This document shows, piece by piece, positions 25,741 to 32,550 of a DNA stretch of 64,000 nucleotides. Within the stretch, counting starts at the first letter, position 1. Each line of letters starts with the position of its first letter. The notes beneath the pieces are model-generated. The model searched no databases, had not been told where the DNA came from, and saw nothing but the letters and a program-made list of their open reading frames with translations. Made by a program: the position numbers and the translations under genes. Source of the stretch: Chryseolinea lacunae (GTDB lineage Bacteria; Bacteroidota; Bacteroidia; Cytophagales; Cyclobacteriaceae); NCBI RefSeq assembly GCF_016735595.1, contig NZ_JAERRB010000017.1:62001-126000 (forward strand). Reading direction: 5' to 3'.

Positions 25741-26938
25741 ATGAAGCACTCTCTATTTGCATTCTGTTTCTTCGCCCTCGCGGCCCACGGGCAGGAAAAA
25801 TACATCAATCTCAAAGGCGTTGTCAGCGACAGCCAAAGTGGCGAGCCCATTGCCTATGCATCTGTGTTTGTGAAGGGGCAGCCCCAGGGCACCATGTCGA
25901 ACGAAGACGGCCGGTTTCTGCTCTACCTTTCACCTAACTTAAAAACAGATTCGCTCGTGTTGTCGGCCATTGGCTATGGGCGTTTGGCCGTGGCCATCGG
26001 GTCGCTGCTTGACAAAGAGGCTGTGCTCAAAATGAAGCCCAGCAGCATTCAGCTTGCCGAGATTGTGGTGCACGCAACCGACAAAGAGCTTTCGGCCAAG
26101 GAGATTGTGAAGAGAGCCGTCAGTCGCATTCCGCAAAACTATCCCATGGAACCGTTTGCCATCGAAGGTTTTTTCCGCGATTTGCAAATGGAAAACGGAC
26201 AGCCTGTGGAGTTGCTCGAAGCGGCCGTCAAGTTCCACTATAAGGACTACAATCCTGGCTACGAAACGGTGGAAGTGTTGGAGGTGCGAAAAAGTTTCAA
26301 CCGGCGTCATCCCATCAACGGCACCTACGACCGGCAGAACTCCATTCGACCTCATGGAAGACAACTATGTGAAACACCGCTTCGGCCCCCTCGATGCAAA
26401 AGGCTGGAAGTTTGCCATCGACAGTGTGATGCGCTACGACCGCAGCGTTGTCTTCAAAATCTCCGGCCGCAAGAGCGCTTCCGAAACCGCCGTGCTGCAC
26501 ATCGACACCGAGACGTTTGCCATTCTGCGCATCGAACTGCGCGAGCGCATGGTGAACGGCGAATTCTATCGTCGCTACCTGAACCTGCCCGATCCCTATG
26601 GCCAGCAGGAAACATCGTTCACCATGCTCTTCGAGTTCAGGGAATTTGAAGGCAAGATGTATCTGAAATACCAACGCGAAGAAGACACCTACAACCTCTT
26701 TAACAAAACCACCAACGCCATCATTCTCAAACAATCGTTCATGAAAGAGCTTTTTGTGAACAACGTGCTCCCCCACCAAACGCATGCACCCGATGCCACC
26801 ATGAATATGAACCGGAGTGTGGAAGGGCAGGCGAAACCGTATAACGAAGCGTTCTGGAAATATTACAACGCCCCGGTAGAAACTGCCCGGGACAGCCAGA
26901 TTCTGAAAGCGCTGAGCGAAATGGAAAGCAAGCCGTAG
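25741..26938 (+). pseudogene. Carboxypeptidase-regulatory-like domain protein, single-base frameshift
   Basis: Two frames together encode one ~398-residue protein: residues 1-~200 in the frame from 25741, the rest in the frame ending at 26938. A signal peptide (MKHSLFAFCFFALAAHGQ) and a carboxypeptidase-regulatory-like beta domain (LKGVVSDSQSGEPIAYASVF) come first. A longer beta-rich domain of a Bacteroidota surface-protein type follows (DLMEDNYVKHRFGPLDAKGW). The break is near 26332-26340, where one extra base disrupts the frame; total length is 1198 nt. The intact sequence on both sides suggests a recent mutation or sequencing error, less likely programmed frameshifting. Confidence 0.8.
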
Positions 26939-26955: not shown

Positions 26956-29073
26956 CTACCCTACCTCTTCATCCCGAAGTCGCTCCACCGTGAGGTGCTT
27001 GCCGTCGTTTAGGGCTTCTGTGATTTTCCTTACAATCTGATCGAGCTCTTCACCCGATTTTCGCAGGGGAACAATGAGGTCAGATTCCTTCAGATCTTTG
27101 TCGTGGTCCAGCAGGTTGATCAATCCCAATATTCTGGAAAGGGGTCCGCGCAACAGGTGCGAGTTGATGAAGGCATATTCGCTAAGTCTTTTGTTCTGGG
27201 CTTCGAGCTCTTCGGTGCGATGTTTCACGCGGTCTTCCAAAACTTCGTTCATGTGCGCGATCTTGCGGCTCTGGTCCTTGATGTGTTTTTCGTATTCCAG
27301 TCGCTGCGAACTGCGGAACGCCAGCGTGATGATGTCGGCCACCGAGCTCACAAACAGCTTATCTTCGGCCGACCATGTTTTTATTTTGTGCTGATGTTCA
27401 CAACACAGCAGGCCCTTCAGGTGGCCGTCCAGAAAAAACGTGGCATCCAGGAGAGAATAGATATTGTTGGGGATAAAATAGGTGTCTGTAAATTCGCGAG
27501 TGGCCGGATCGGTTCGTGCGTCCACCGCCGCTATGATTCTTTCTTTCTTAATGGCTTCAAAATAATGTGGTGCATCACAAAACGCCAGGCTTGCCGCGTC
27601 CAGGTATTGATCTGATGCCAGGTTATAACAGGCCAGTGTTTTGATGCAACCTTCGTTCTCGTGATAGATCCAGATGCTCACCTGGCTGGTTTGAAGTTTT
27701 TTTGCTGTGATGGAAACAATGTCGCGGGCGGCATGGGCCAGGTTGCCCACCGCCAGGCTCCTGTTTTTCGAGAAGTCCACCAGCGTGGTCATATGGCTTT
27801 CCAGCGTCCGGTTTCGTTTCATCATCTGTCGTTTGTTGCGGATGAGCTGATACACAATAATGATGGCCGAAATCACCAACACCACCAACACAAAAATGAC
27901 GGCCGTTTTGCGTTCGCTCCTGACTTTCAACAAAAGGTTTTCACTATCCTTTCGCTCAATGGCCAGTTGAAACCGAAACTGCGATTCGCGGTGCTCGGCC
28001 TCCAGTCTTTTAATGGAGTCTTTCAGGGCCACATAGTTTTCGTAGTTGTCGAAAACCGCATGCGAATTCAGTTGCAGCTTGTCGGTCTGCCACAAAAAGA
28101 AATAGGCCTCCATCCGAACATTCAGGTCCTGGCGCGAGGTGGAGACTTCCAGCGTTTTGGTGAAATATTCCTTGGCCTCCGGAATGTTGCCTTTCTTGTG
28201 CAGGATCTGCCCCATAATCAAATAGGCTTCGGGCAACAACCGGATGTTGTTGGAGCGCAGAATATTCGCCAGCCCTTCGCTCACTTTTTTCTCTGCCTCT
28301 ACAAGATTGCCCTGGCCAAACAAACACTCCCCAATGCCCACCTTGATTTCGGATGTCGAAATCAAATCGTGCATGGTCTGTGCAATGGAATCGGCGCTTT
28401 CAAAATACCGCAGTGCCAGGTCAACTTTGTTATCCGACAAATAGAGTTTGCCCAGTTGAAGCTGGGCCGAGATAATTTCCTTTTTATTGCCCAACCCAAT
28501 CCGGATCTTCAGCGCAGCCAGATAGTTTTCTTCCGACTGCTTCCACTGGCGGGTGATCCGGTAATAACCACCCAAACCCTGCAACGAATAGGCTATGCCC
28601 GTAGGGTCGTTCAGCTCGTCGAACATCTTTTTCCCAAGCACCAGGTGTTCGTAGGCTTTGTCCAGCAAGCCCTGCTCCATAAAAAGCCGGCCAATGTTGT
28701 TGTGTGCATGCCCCGCCTGCAGCAGGTCTTTGTTTTCTGCCGCAACACCGAGCGCCTGTTTGTAGAAATCATACGCGGCCAGATTGTCGCCTTTGTGTGT
28801 GTTGGCAACGCCGATAAAATTCAGAGGCTTGGCAATGTCTTTCCGCCCCAGCGCGCGGCCCAGTGCCAAAGCCTTCTGGGCATAAAAAATACCGCTGTCC
28901 GGAAAGGCCGTCCGCAATTCCCACGAAAGTTTGTTTAAGGCTTCATAGCGCTGATCGTCGTTTGGGGCACGGGCAACATCTCTTTTGAGACCCTGAATCA
29001 ACTCGGTGTTCTGGCCCGCCAGGGGCAATGCAAGAAGCAGGAACACAGAAAAAAGGACGCTGCGAAGAATCAC
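26956..29073 (-). CDS. TPR-GAF sensor protein with lone HisKA-like domain
   Basis: This 705-residue membrane signalling protein has a signal peptide (~1-20) and periplasmic TPR repeats (~30-360, for example GHAHNNIGRLFMEQGLLDKA). A transmembrane segment (~392-412, AVIFVLVVLVISAIIIVYQL), a GAF domain (~430-590) and a coiled coil leading to a HisKA-like helix hairpin follow. H639 in INSHLLRGPLSRILGL is the likely phosphoacceptor. The protein ends about 65 residues after it, so the HATPase_c domain is absent. It could be phosphorylated by a separate kinase or act as a dimerisation partner. A soluble HisKA/HATPase protein is encoded 1.4 kb away (30428). Confidence 0.85.
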   Translation of the reverse strand: MILRSVLFSVFLLLALPLAGQNTELIQGLKRDVARAPNDDQRYEALNKLSWELRTAFPDSGIFYAQKALALGRALGRKDIAKPLNFIGVANTHKGDNLAAYDFYKQALGVAAENKDLLQAGHAHNNIGRLFMEQGLLDKAYEHLVLGKKMFDELNDPTGIAYSLQGLGGYYRITRQWKQSEENYLAALKIRIGLGNKKEIISAQLQLGKLYLSDNKVDLALRYFESADSIAQTMHDLISTSEIKVGIGECLFGQGNLVEAEKKVSEGLANILRSNNIRLLPEAYLIMGQILHKKGNIPEAKEYFTKTLEVSTSRQDLNVRMEAYFFLWQTDKLQLNSHAVFDNYENYVALKDSIKRLEAEHRESQFRFQLAIERKDSENLLLKVRSERKTAVIFVLVVLVISAIIIVYQLIRNKRQMMKRNRTLESHMTTLVDFSKNRSLAVGNLAHAARDIVSITAKKLQTSQVSIWIYHENEGCIKTLACYNLASDQYLDAASLAFCDAPHYFEAIKKERIIAAVDARTDPATREFTDTYFIPNNIYSLLDATFFLDGHLKGLLCCEHQHKIKTWSAEDKLFVSSVADIITLAFRSSQRLEYEKHIKDQSRKIAHMNEVLEDRVKHRTEELEAQNKRLSEYAFINSHLLRGPLSRILGLINLLDHDKDLKESDLIVPLRKSGEELDQIVRKITEALNDGKHLTVERLRDEEVG

Positions 29074-29318: not shown

Positions 29319-30347
29319 ATGACCATCAATTCGAACGACATCCTTCATTGGGAAGACAAGTACAGGATCAGATTCATCAACTCCATTTCCGGCTACAAGA
29401 GCGTGCATTTGATCGGAACACAAAATGCACAGGGCCAAACAAACCTGGCCATCTTTAATTCCGTCGTTCACCTGGGCGCCTCACCTCCGCTCATCGGCTT
29501 TGTTATGAGACCCCTCACGGTGGAGCGGCACACCTACCGCAACATCCTGGCCATGGAATGCTTCACCATCAATCATGTGCACAAATCCTTTCTCAAACAA
29601 GCGCACTACACATCAGCCAAATTTGCGGATACAGAATCCGAATTCACCACCTGTCATTTAACCGAAGAGCGCGTCGGCCAATTCGCGGCACCCTTTGTCG
29701 CCGAAAGCAAAATCAAACTTGGTCTGAGGCTCAAAGAAGACATCACCGTCAGAGAAAATGGAACGCATTTCATGATCGGTGAGATTGTGCACATTCTGAT
29801 CGACGACGACCTGGCAGAACCCGATGGCCAGCTGGATCTGGAACGCGCCAACGACGTGTGCGTAACCGGATTGAATCAGTATTCGTCTGTCTCAAAATTC
29901 ATAAAACTACCGGCCGCCAAGGTCACGGAAATGCCCGACTTCAAAACAAAAGAACGGGCCGACAACGTTGTCTTCGACAAAGACACACAGCGCTACAACG
30001 CTAACCTTCTCCCCTACGGAACAAACATTGGAGCACCCCGAATAGAAGCCACGGGCGTGTCTACCTGGAAAAATTCCAGCATCAGCAGCTTTAACCACAC
30101 CTTTCAGAATAAAATTGAAAACCTCAAAAACACCTACAAACAACTCATCAACGAATATGAAGTAAACCAGATGCTATATCAGTGCAAGCTGAATTTTGAA
30201 CCCCTTGTTGGACAAACCTACCATCTCTATTTTGACACCAACAAGGATGAAAAATTCCTCTCCCTCATTCCACCAGACAGTTGGCGCATGGAGCACGTTG
30301 GTTCGTTCAAACTCAATCATGAAAAACTTTGGGAAAAGGTTGTCTGA
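29319..30347 (+). CDS. Flavin reductase domain fused to DUF2452
   Basis: This 342-residue protein starts at the ATG at 29319 (MTINSNDILHWEDKYRIRF). Residues ~15-205 match the FMN-binding flavin reductase-like family (FINSISGYKSVHLIGTQNAQ, and a PPLIGFVMRP segment). Residues ~225-342 match DUF2452: NANLLPYGTNIGAPRIE, a helical coiled segment, then NFEPLVGQTYHLYF and LSLIPPDSW near the end. DUF2452 proteins are normally separate small proteins of unknown function, so the fusion links that domain to flavin chemistry. The product is cytoplasmic. The kinase gene at 30428 follows by 80 bp on the same strand. Confidence 0.85.
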   Translation: MTINSNDILHWEDKYRIRFINSISGYKSVHLIGTQNAQGQTNLAIFNSVVHLGASPPLIGFVMRPLTVERHTYRNILAMECFTINHVHKSFLKQAHYTSAKFADTESEFTTCHLTEERVGQFAAPFVAESKIKLGLRLKEDITVRENGTHFMIGEIVHILIDDDLAEPDGQLDLERANDVCVTGLNQYSSVSKFIKLPAAKVTEMPDFKTKERADNVVFDKDTQRYNANLLPYGTNIGAPRIEATGVSTWKNSSISSFNHTFQNKIENLKNTYKQLINEYEVNQMLYQCKLNFEPLVGQTYHLYFDTNKDEKFLSLIPPDSWRMEHVGSFKLNHEKLWEKVV

Positions 30348-30427
30348 AATAAAAATAGGGATTCTGCTTAGCCGACCTTTGCAAACCCGCCGAAGCCAGC
30401 CACCATCAACACTAAACGGGCAACCCC

Positions 30428-31333
30428 ATGGACTCAAAAGATTTTAACATGATCCCGGACGCCGCTGCGCGAAAAAACGATTTCGATTTGCTCGTCGCAC
30501 AGTTGAAGGAAGAAACCCTGAAATTGAAAGACCGCGAACAGGAACTGGAAGATCAGGCCGAAGAATTGTCTTCCCAGAAAGAAGAACTCACCGCCGCCAT
30601 CGAAGAGTTGATGTCCAAGAACAGGTCGCTGGAAGACACCCTCACGCAACTGCGCGAACGAAACCACGAACTGGACCAGATTCTCTATCGCACATCGCAC
30701 GATTTGCGCAGCCCGCTTTCGTCCATCAAAGGCATCCTAGCTTTGCTGCAGCTGGAACCACAAACCGACGTGATCAGAAACTACGGAAAGCACATCGACG
30801 ACAAGGCCACCCAGATGGATAACCTCTTGCGCTCGCTCGCCTCGCTCTCCAAATCCATCCTGGAAGAGCCGCTGTTCGGAACAATCGATCTCAACAAACT
30901 CATCTGGCAAGTCATTGGCGAATACCGCCATCTGCCCAGTTGGAACCAGGTAGAAGTGCATGTAGAGCTTCACGCCCTGAGGCTGCACACCGACCCGGCC
31001 CTCATCACCATACTCTTCCAATGTCTTATCTCAAACGCCTTCATTTTCCGCGATCCCGCCAAAAAAGGAAAACTTGTGATCAGAACCAGACACGAGCACG
31101 GGCATTGGATCGCCGATGTGATCGACGATGGTGAGGGAGTTCACCACACAGTTCAGCCACACATATTCGACATGTTCTATCGGGGCTCCGAGCGGGCAAT
31201 CGGCAACGGGCTGGGGTTATACATCGGCAAGAAAGCAGCCCACAGGTTGAAAGGCACGCTCTCTGTTCACCCCGAACCATCCTTCACCCGTTTCACACTC
31301 ATGCTCCCGCTGCACCCGGTTCCGGCGCTGTAG
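30428..31333 (+). CDS. Soluble sensor histidine kinase with N-terminal coiled coil
   Basis: This 301-residue cytoplasmic kinase has no membrane segment. Residues ~18-85 form a long coiled coil (LKDREQELEDQAEELSSQKE). A HisKA domain follows with H91 in YRTSHDLRSPLSSIKG, then an ATPase domain with SNAFIFRD, DDGEGV and GLGLYIGKKA. No sensor domain is present, so the signal must come from a partner. Neighbouring candidates are the BLUF photoreceptor, the coiled-coil protein whose gene overlaps its 3' end by 35 bp, and the ATPase-less sensor at 26956. No dedicated response regulator gene adjoins it. Confidence 0.9.
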   Translation: MDSKDFNMIPDAAARKNDFDLLVAQLKEETLKLKDREQELEDQAEELSSQKEELTAAIEELMSKNRSLEDTLTQLRERNHELDQILYRTSHDLRSPLSSIKGILALLQLEPQTDVIRNYGKHIDDKATQMDNLLRSLASLSKSILEEPLFGTIDLNKLIWQVIGEYRHLPSWNQVEVHVELHALRLHTDPALITILFQCLISNAFIFRDPAKKGKLVIRTRHEHGHWIADVIDDGEGVHHTVQPHIFDMFYRGSERAIGNGLGLYIGKKAAHRLKGTLSVHPEPSFTRFTLMLPLHPVPAL

Positions 31334-31661
31334 CCGAAGTCGCGTTGAGTTTTTCTTCGAGGTCTTTTATGTAGCCCAGAATATCCTCCATCATCAACCG
31401 TTGGGCGTAGTTCAACTCTTTCAGATAGTCGATCTCGCTTTCCAGGTTCAAAATCTTTGACTGGTATTGAGCATTGATCAACGAGAGGCGTGCCTCAAAT
31501 TGTTCGTGCTGGTATTGCGCGTTTCCCGTGGTCACATTTCGGCTTCGGCTAAGCTCCGCCTGGTGAAACGACGACAGCCTGCGCACTTCGTCCTCCAGCT
31601 TCCGGATGAGCTTTTCAATTTTCGCCTGAATTGCCGATTCCTGCACGAGATTGTCCCTCAC
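31299..31661 (-). CDS. Small coiled-coil protein in BLUF operon
   Basis: This 120-residue, almost wholly helical protein (IEKLIRKLEDEVRRLSSFHQ early on, YIKDLEEKLNATSATAP near the end) ends in a short alanine/proline tail. It has no known domain; a structural or adaptor role is likely. Its start overlaps the BLUF stop codon by 4 bp (ATGA), which ties its translation to the photoreceptor, and its 3' end overlaps the convergent kinase gene by 35 bp. It may relay the BLUF light signal to a coiled-coil kinase, but this is inference from context. Confidence 0.75.
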   Translation of the reverse strand: MRDNLVQESAIQAKIEKLIRKLEDEVRRLSSFHQAELSRSRNVTTGNAQYQHEQFEARLSLINAQYQSKILNLESEIDYLKELNYAQRLMMEDILGYIKDLEEKLNATSATAPEPGAAGA

Positions 31662-32080
31662 TTTTTGAAAAACTTCACCAGCAACTCCTGCACCTTTGCC
31701 CCCTCGGTTTCCTTGCCGCTCATGATTTTCGTAAACACATCCTTGTCGCCCGAAGTTATGTCGGTCACAAAACTGATGTCGTCCGAGGAAAATTTACGGC
31801 TTCCCATTTGCCAACTCGGAAATATTCTCGCCGCAATGGGACTATAGGAAATCATCACCGCTTTTTCGTGCCGCTCATCCTTCTTGATCTTGTCATAAAG
31901 CGTCATCAACGACGTTGACTCGCCCTCCACATACTGGATGAATTTATGGTCCGAATAAAGCAGCACACCCGTGATGTCGAGCGGCCCATTGTTGATTTTA
32001 CACGACGCGAGAATTTTTTCGATTTCAGCCTCGGTACAGTTACTTTTTCTTACGCTTACGTAAGCCAGATGTGCCAGCAT
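31658..32080 (-). CDS. BLUF-domain blue-light photoreceptor
   Basis: This 140-residue FAD-binding blue-light sensor contains a BLUF domain at residues 1-~95 and a short helical tail. With the ATG at 32080 (MLAHLAYVS), all the photocycle residues align with AppA at a constant offset of 14: Y7, N31, Q49 (FIQYVEGE), W90 and M92 (SWQMGSR). This supports the start; another ATG at 32113 would add 11 residues. BLUF proteins change the flavin hydrogen-bond network on illumination and pass the signal by protein contacts. It is the middle gene of a three-gene operon and has no fused output domain, so the partner proteins probably provide the output. Confidence 0.93.
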   Translation of the reverse strand: MLAHLAYVSVRKSNCTEAEIEKILASCKINNGPLDITGVLLYSDHKFIQYVEGESTSLMTLYDKIKKDERHEKAVMISYSPIAARIFPSWQMGSRKFSSDDISFVTDITSGDKDVFTKIMSGKETEGAKVQELLVKFFKK

Positions 32081-32127
32081 AGTGAATAGAATTAAAGAAA
32101 GTTTAGTAGTCAAAAAAGGTTTTTCTC

Positions 32128-32550
32128 TCAGAGCTCGATAGCTTCCTCCAGCGACTCTGCATACAAAATGTCCATCTTGTGAAACTTGCCGTCGGGAAAG
32201 GCAACATTAATTTTGTTGCGGCCAATTTTCACACTTTGGCGAAACACCTCGTCGGCAGGCAAAATCTTGACATGCCGGTTCAGGCCAAACTCAAACATCT
32301 TCTCTTTCCATTCCACAAAATACCATTCCATGGAAGGTTGATGAAAAACGGTGAGCTGCCGCTTGTCGAAAATGAGTTTCTGTATTTTGTGGCGATTAAC
32401 CCAATCGGCAATCTCACTGAAAATAAGTTTAAATTGATCCACGGGAATGTAGGTGGCCGTGGCCGTTACCAGCAAAGTAGGTTGGTGGGATTTTACAAAA
32501 GCAAGGGAAGCATGTTTAAAGTCTTTTTTTTCTTCAATATTCACCATCAT
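32128..32550 (-). CDS. STAS/SpoIIAA-like hypothetical protein
   Basis: This 140-residue soluble protein has alternating strands and helices (IQKLIFDKRQLTVFHQPSME in the middle, SVKIGRNKINVAFPDGKF near the end). The pattern resembles STAS/SpoIIAA-like proteins of Bacteroidota that have no firm function. STAS domains in other systems are light- or stress-responsive switch partners of kinases and anti-sigma factors. It is the first gene of the BLUF operon; the BLUF start lies 47 bp downstream of its stop. Confidence 0.65.
   Translation of the reverse strand: MMVNIEEKKDFKHASLAFVKSHQPTLLVTATATYIPVDQFKLIFSEIADWVNRHKIQKLIFDKRQLTVFHQPSMEWYFVEWKEKMFEFGLNRHVKILPADEVFRQSVKIGRNKINVAFPDGKFHKMDILYAESLEEAIEL

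Follow-up and report, generated by a model that had tools for sequence, protein, structure and literature searches.

Organization of the locus

The stretch analysed here, referred to as the window, comprises 64,000 nt of the Chryseolinea lacunae contig NZ_JAERRB010000017.1 (positions 62,001 to 126,000). It contains a gene for a short BLUF photoreceptor surrounded by genes for candidate signalling partners. Three genes follow one another on the minus strand, with BLUF in the middle: that coding for a STAS-like protein (window positions 32128..32550; 140 aa), that for the BLUF protein (31658..32080; 140 aa from the ATG, or 151 aa if translation starts at TTG 32113) and that for a small coiled-coil protein (31299..31646). 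Convergent with this trio, on the plus strand, lies the gene for a soluble histidine kinase (30428..31333), which overlaps the coiled-coil gene tail-to-tail by 35 bp. A further plus-strand gene, in which a flavin reductase-like domain is fused to DUF2452 (29319..30347), adjoins this four-gene block. Genome searches found one copy each of BLUF, the STAS-like gene and DUF2452. An earlier examination of the window, made from the letters and their open reading frames (ORFs) without database searches (the sequence-only reading), had proposed that these genes form a light-sensing pathway. The genes it described were confirmed to be real, with one correction regarding the start of the coiled-coil gene and its overlap with BLUF.

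The BLUF protein is of the short, PixD type

The BLUF protein matched Pfam family PF04940 (95.2 bits) and contains all five photocycle residues, Y7, N31, Q49, W90 and M92, at a putative offset of 14 to AppA. The alignment used for the BLUF tree had 53 rows, 50 of them different; the Tyr and Gln were each present in 52 rows, the Asn in 51, and the Trp and Met in all 53. The exceptions were a truncated row without Y, N and Q, and a row with T at position 31. No effector or output domain was found in the window BLUF, nor any second Pfam domain at an E-value of 0.001, in agreement with the earlier description of a short BLUF with every photocycle residue and no output domain. An AlphaFold2 model made from 11 sequences (pLDDT 83.8, pTM 0.80) comprised a core and two C-terminal helices (residues 110-120 and 127-138). 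The best Foldseek matches of this model in the PDB were Tll0078 and PixD/Slr1694, which aligned over the full length with TM-scores of up to 0.80. The window protein shares with these two the full-length fold, the pair of C-terminal helices and the key residues, and is a PixD-type short BLUF for which flavin binding and a reversible, red-shifted photocycle are predicted.

Several BLUF genes from other genomes showed unusual arrangements. At locus L069 two BLUF genes lie in tandem, and Thr replaces the photocycle Asn31 in one of them. L325 (716-1759, minus strand) carries a BLUF joined to an adenylate/guanylate cyclase domain, an arrangement known from photoactivated cyclases; L326 (671-1726, minus strand) was judged by eye to be similar. 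At L327 (1669-3258, plus strand) a BLUF domain scoring 90 bits shares a single open frame of 529 aa with the two AIR-synthase (PurM-like) domains. This frame was seen once, in a genome of ~400 contigs, and the other BLUFs inspected had no adjoining PurM-like gene.

The STAS-like protein resembles SpoIIAA-like proteins

On its own, the STAS-like protein had no Pfam match, and sequence searches of the PDB gave no meaningful match either. An alignment of its family (42 rows) revealed 16 invariant columns, including D62, K63, Q71, M74, W76, Y77, W81, K82, H93 and K95, and the window member has the motif FDKRxLxxFHQPSMEWYF..WK..HxKILP. Only one of the 42 members matched the Pfam SpoIIAA-like family, weakly and below the Pfam thresholds (E 0.077); the others showed no match up to an E-value of 1. 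A profile search of the PDB with the family gave nothing significant (best E 0.42), and a scan of viral contigs found no relative. When the family was compared by HHalign with a SpoIIAA-like (PF11964) profile built from proteins of the same order, a probability of 80 (score 35) was obtained over 93 columns; none of eight other profiles, including that of classical STAS, gave a probability above 1.03. The sensitivity of these comparisons is limited: SpoIIAA-like against classical STAS itself scored a probability of only 37. The family looks like a distant relative of the SpoIIAA-like proteins of the STAS/SEC14 superfamily, although it differs from PF11964 members in having an invariant motif of its own and a single weak Pfam match in 42. 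The name given to it in the sequence-only reading is appropriate at this profile level, but not in the sense of classical STAS. Similarity to classical STAS (PF01740) was not supported: there was no Pfam match, and HHalign, a method of limited sensitivity here, gave a probability of 1.03. A single-sequence AlphaFold2 model (pLDDT 43) was too poor to support any claim. Position 73, putatively equivalent to the phospho-site of STAS proteins, is S in 36, T in five and A in one of the 42 members.

The coiled-coil gene probably starts at GTG 31646

The small coiled-coil protein produced only generic coiled-coil Pfam matches. A single-sequence search at an E-value of 1e-6 detected it in seven of 390 genomes of the family, and a profile search found more. 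It had been proposed that its gene is translationally coupled to BLUF through a 4-bp overlap. The two genes are indeed close together, but the overlap requires translation to start at GTG 31661 (giving 120 aa), while the in-frame GTG 31646 lines up in the family alignment with the coiled-coil starts of two related loci, L044 and L120, and is probably the true start. With longest-ORF starts, BLUF and the coiled-coil gene are separated by gaps of 12 bp at L044, 6 bp at L046 and 11 bp at L120. Coupling by overlap is therefore unsure.

The histidine kinase has no detectable sensor domain

The kinase matched PF00512 (HisKA, 33.5 bits) and PF02518 (HATPase, 55 bits) above the cut-offs. Its H, N, G1 and G2 boxes are intact (SHDLRSP with the phospho-acceptor His, N203, DDGEG and GNGLGLY), and these boxes were found in 17 of 18 aligned members of the kinase family, the window protein counted. 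The N-terminal stretch gave coiled-coil-type Pfam matches only and no sensor domain, as expected from the earlier description of a soluble kinase that has a coiled coil but lacks a sensor. One family member, at L123 (3682-4482, minus strand), lacks the H-box stretch and is perhaps degenerate or non-catalytic.

The kinase, coiled-coil and STAS-like genes form a module that occurs mostly without BLUF

STAS-like matches were found in 160 of the 390 family genomes at an E-value of 0.001 (eight of them weak) and in 72 of 222 genomes sampled from the order (60 belonging to other families). A total of 103 STAS-like loci from 99 genomes were classified; the set was made up of 100 fetched regions together with the window, L044 and L046, and took in part of the places with a match. 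A kinase was counted as adjoining if it lay within 1.5 kb of the STAS-like gene; the kinase profile is biased towards its own family, since the loci identified first were used to build it. By this classification, 65 loci belonged to a pterin operon (see below), 20 had the kinase without BLUF, four had both kinase and BLUF, and 14 had neither. The kinase gene was convergent with the STAS-like gene at 18 of the 24 kinase loci, on the same strand at four and divergent at two. A coiled-coil gene was present at 14 of them, overlapping the kinase gene tail-to-tail by 4-53 bp at 12. Elsewhere in the order, 40 STAS-like loci of other families were inspected; a kinase-profile match adjoined the STAS-like gene in six cases, and nine had a coiled-coil match. 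The STAS-kinase association is therefore wider than BLUF.

These results suggest that the kinase and the STAS-like protein, often together with the coiled-coil protein, make up an older module of their own that is independent of BLUF. The proposal that these three belong together is thus supported. The opposite view, that an unrelated kinase gene happens to lie convergent with a unit made up of the STAS-like, BLUF and coiled-coil genes only, would agree with the kinase lying on the opposite strand and touching the unit just through a tail-to-tail overlap. We regard it as very improbable: adjacency of the same kinase family to STAS-like genes at 24 of the 103 loci, in three orientations, led to its rejection, and the six cases from other families also speak against it.

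In this bacterial family the STAS-like gene is most often found in a pterin operon

The commonest context of the STAS-like gene in this family of bacteria (65 of the 103 loci, all among L133-L243) was an operon with genes for PTPS (PF01242), FolE (PF01227), a short-chain dehydrogenase (SDR), a coiled-coil protein, the STAS-like protein and a flavin reductase (PF01613). Its contents were established with Pfam on one example (L150:2391-5670) and counted at the other loci with profiles: SDR genes were present in 64 of the 65, coiled-coil genes in 62 and the flavin reductase in 52. The operon would be predicted to make a tetrahydrobiopterin-like pterin.

In the window, both parts of the flavin reductase-DUF2452 protein were detected within a single frame (PF01613, 61.5 bits with a cut-off of 27; PF10504, 39.1 bits), in accordance with the fusion described earlier. 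The fusion was seen in the window genome alone: homologues were detected in 83 of 148 genomes, and only the window's own matched across residues 1-342. The window flavin reductase is related to that of the pterin operons. Since the latter is present in 52 of the 65 operons, the flavin reductase appears to be genuinely linked in evolution to the STAS-like gene. The grouping of the flavin-binding neighbour with these genes is supported to that extent, but a flavin reductase adjoins just three of the 24 kinase loci (the window, L044 and L130).

This context raises the alternative that the STAS-like/coiled-coil pair primarily regulates flavin/pterin redox enzymes or serves as their scaffold. At the kinase loci the kinase would report that redox or pterin state, and BLUF, as a flavoprotein, would report the flavin or redox state, or light, to the same pair. 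Both the composition of the pterin operons and the flavin reductase beside three kinase clusters are in line with this. However, pterin genes were found at none of the 24 kinase loci within the stretches fetched, the pterin operon was found at none of the 40 loci from other families, and BLUF retains its whole set of photocycle residues. We consider this explanation unlikely.

BLUF is linked to the module in four genera

BLUF matches were found in 46 of 148 family genomes, and in 91 of 390 at an E-value of 1e-15, 55 of the 91 scoring above 100 bits. Fifty BLUF loci were inspected (10 plus 40 fetched), covering part of the weak places; three pairs represented the same locus and some loci ended at contig ends. 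STAS-like and coiled-coil genes were present only at L034/L044 (the same locus, from Pseudochryseolinea flava) and at L046. A further locus, L120, came from the STAS-like rather than the BLUF search. The block, with the kinase gene on the plus strand and the coiled-coil, BLUF and STAS-like genes on the minus strand, was thus seen in four genomes, each from a different genus (the window, L044, L046 and L120). The sequences flanking the four blocks are unrelated, the only homologous outside genes being flavin reductases in two of them; four further matches between the block loci corresponded to antisense or shadow ORFs inside the block. The module usually has no adjoining BLUF, and most of the BLUF orthologues inspected lie away from these neighbours, which is largely the outcome that the sequence-only reading had named as its own refutation. 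A dedicated BLUF pathway shared among relatives is therefore not supported. The sequence-only reading was right about the link between the kinase, coiled-coil, STAS-like and flavin reductase genes, and wrong in taking BLUF as their common denominator.

Judged by eye, the two genes were on separate contigs or far apart in the other genomes with both BLUF and a STAS-like gene; the exception was genome G099, in which 6.5 kb separate BLUF from a kinase-STAS pair. A BLUF orthologue was present in the genome for 14 of the 20 unlinked kinase loci, compared with 13 of the 65 pterin loci, kinship being ignored. When the linked loci were added, the figure for kinase loci rose to 18 of 24, genome G139 being counted on both sides. 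On a wider, hand-made list, BLUF orthologues were present in 16 of 22 kinase-type genomes (versus the same 13 of 65 for pterin); counted by genus, in 11 of 12 kinase-type genera, or eight of nine without the linked genomes.

In the STAS-like tree (45 rows), the four BLUF-bearing rows require one change (support 74/45; 76% of bootstrap trees); they fork with one kinase-type row, in a region where the branching is poorly resolved. The BLUF tree unites the block BLUFs and four block-less rows in one well-supported clade (100/99). The STAS-like and coiled-coil genes were absent from all five genomes of the same genus that were searched. The block BLUFs from the three other genera share 81, 79 and 69% identity with the window BLUF; the one same-genus genome that has a BLUF orthologue carries it at 60% identity. 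The absence from the genus, the BLUF identities and the non-homologous flanks all fit a block that was transferred as a unit, or one that was lost repeatedly. Base composition was also considered as an argument for transfer and set aside: the G+C content of BLUF plus the STAS-like gene is 44.0%, against a mean of 50.0 (standard deviation 3.6), and 13 of 210 segments were as low or lower, a deviation too mild to decide.

BLUF may have joined the kinase module as a light input

Since the kinase/coiled-coil/STAS-like unit occurs mostly without BLUF, BLUF was probably added to an existing module. The interpretation we favour, with a probability of about 0.5, is that BLUF joined the older kinase module as a light input acting in trans. 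Within this order of Bacteroidota, a sensorless kinase, a SpoIIAA-like protein and often a small coiled-coil protein would have made up a signalling module. A PixD-type short BLUF would then, in one lineage, have settled between the genes for the STAS-like and coiled-coil proteins; the resulting four-gene block would have been retained, perhaps moving between genera. Such an insertion suggests, without proving, that the kinase acquired light as an input. Blue light would rearrange the BLUF flavin pocket (Tyr7-Gln49-flavin) and the C-terminal helices; the lit protein would bind or release the STAS-like or coiled-coil partner, and this change would alter the coiled coil leading into HisKA and hence kinase autophosphorylation. 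The wiring from BLUF through an adaptor to the kinase is a proposal. The gain of BLUF rather than its loss elsewhere, the protein contacts, the direction of the effect and a response regulator encoded at an unlinked site are all things that we infer; the protein families, the photocycle and kinase residues, the independence of the module from BLUF and the retention of the block are shown by the sequences themselves.

Several observations weigh against this interpretation. Most of the BLUF orthologues inspected have no STAS-like, coiled-coil or module kinase gene nearby, and none of these genes was found in six additional orthologue regions (with 2.5-3 kb flanks). Of 55 genomes with a BLUF orthologue, 35 had no kinase-type module on the hand-made list, and none of the 40 STAS-like loci from other families, which also lacked the pterin operon, had an adjoining BLUF. 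The coiled coil and the kinase show no visible difference between loci with and without BLUF. The co-occurrence of BLUF and the module in genomes may derive from shared ancestry; only two to four phylogenetically independent pairs were available for comparison, which gives no power. Within the clade containing the block BLUFs, the four block-less rows (Ohtaekwangia koreensis, with two copies of one locus, and two metagenome-assembled genomes, MAGs) are nested inside, and there BLUF is kept without the module; the O. koreensis/MAG branch seems to have lost either the linkage or the module. The STAS-like and BLUF trees differ in the inner order of the four block members, so strict joint descent of the two genes is not established. 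Support for a single gain of BLUF is weak, and the choice between gain and loss hinges on the root.

Some of the same observations would be expected if BLUF were a passenger whose partner is encoded elsewhere, as is presumably the case for the lone orthologues, its position merely supplying it with the promoter of the STAS-like and coiled-coil genes. The orthologues without the module and the persistence of BLUF in its closest clade where the module is absent agree with this, as does the lack of a recurring neighbour: the only large neighbour cluster of lone BLUFs (14 loci) consists of what appear by eye to be generic sensor-kinase-type proteins. Against it, the block was retained in four genera despite differing flanks, and BLUF orthologues are common in genomes with an unlinked kinase module. 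We consider a passenger role less likely than a light input.

Light input in trans has precedents among known photoreceptors. The short BLUF protein PixD is described as acting on a separate partner, PixE (PMC5899715), and the window BLUF, if it acts at all, would likewise act in trans. The neighbours differ, however, from those of the PixD system: they are a STAS-like protein, a coiled-coil protein and a histidine kinase, and the block contains no PixE-like response regulator. As in YtvA, described as a LOV-STAS protein, a blue-light flavin receptor is tied to a STAS-like protein, but here the receptor is BLUF rather than LOV, the genes are separate rather than fused, and the partner is distantly SpoIIAA-like rather than classical STAS. 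Another STAS-linked system, the RsbR/RsbS/RsbT stressosome, uses an RsbT-type serine kinase, while that of the window is a HisKA histidine kinase. BLUF units have been described inside some histidine kinases (PMC6798134), and photoreceptor histidine kinases in general (LOV, phytochrome and some BLUF fusions) offer the parallel of a soluble kinase reached via a coiled coil (PMC6798134). In the window, unlike in these, receptor and kinase are encoded by separate genes, and the kinase family mostly has no adjoining BLUF. Among the titles and abstract openings listed in searches of the open-access literature, none gave an account of this gene cluster.

The locus offers three concrete partner candidates for BLUF (the STAS-like protein, the coiled-coil protein and the kinase), and an internal control is available in that the same kinase/coiled-coil/STAS-like module exists with and without a linked BLUF. 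The STAS-like family, which has no Pfam placement but a strong invariant motif, is found next to histidine kinases as well as in pterin operons, contexts that give a testable connection between the signalling module and pterin/flavin metabolism. As a tentative extension, which we hold to be possible but far from established, the STAS-like/coiled-coil pair could be a general adaptor serving pterin/flavin enzymes, a sensorless kinase or BLUF according to lineage, with the block spreading as a light-sensing cassette. If so, the window would show a light input wired onto an existing kinase by the insertion of one gene.

Other features of the window

Two neighbouring regions deserve mention. At 26956-29073 (minus strand) the window encodes a TPR-GAF protein that stops shortly past a weak HisKA match, with no HATPase domain seen by Pfam. 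At 25741-26938 (plus strand), two overlapping ORFs in different frames resemble a single frameshifted gene.

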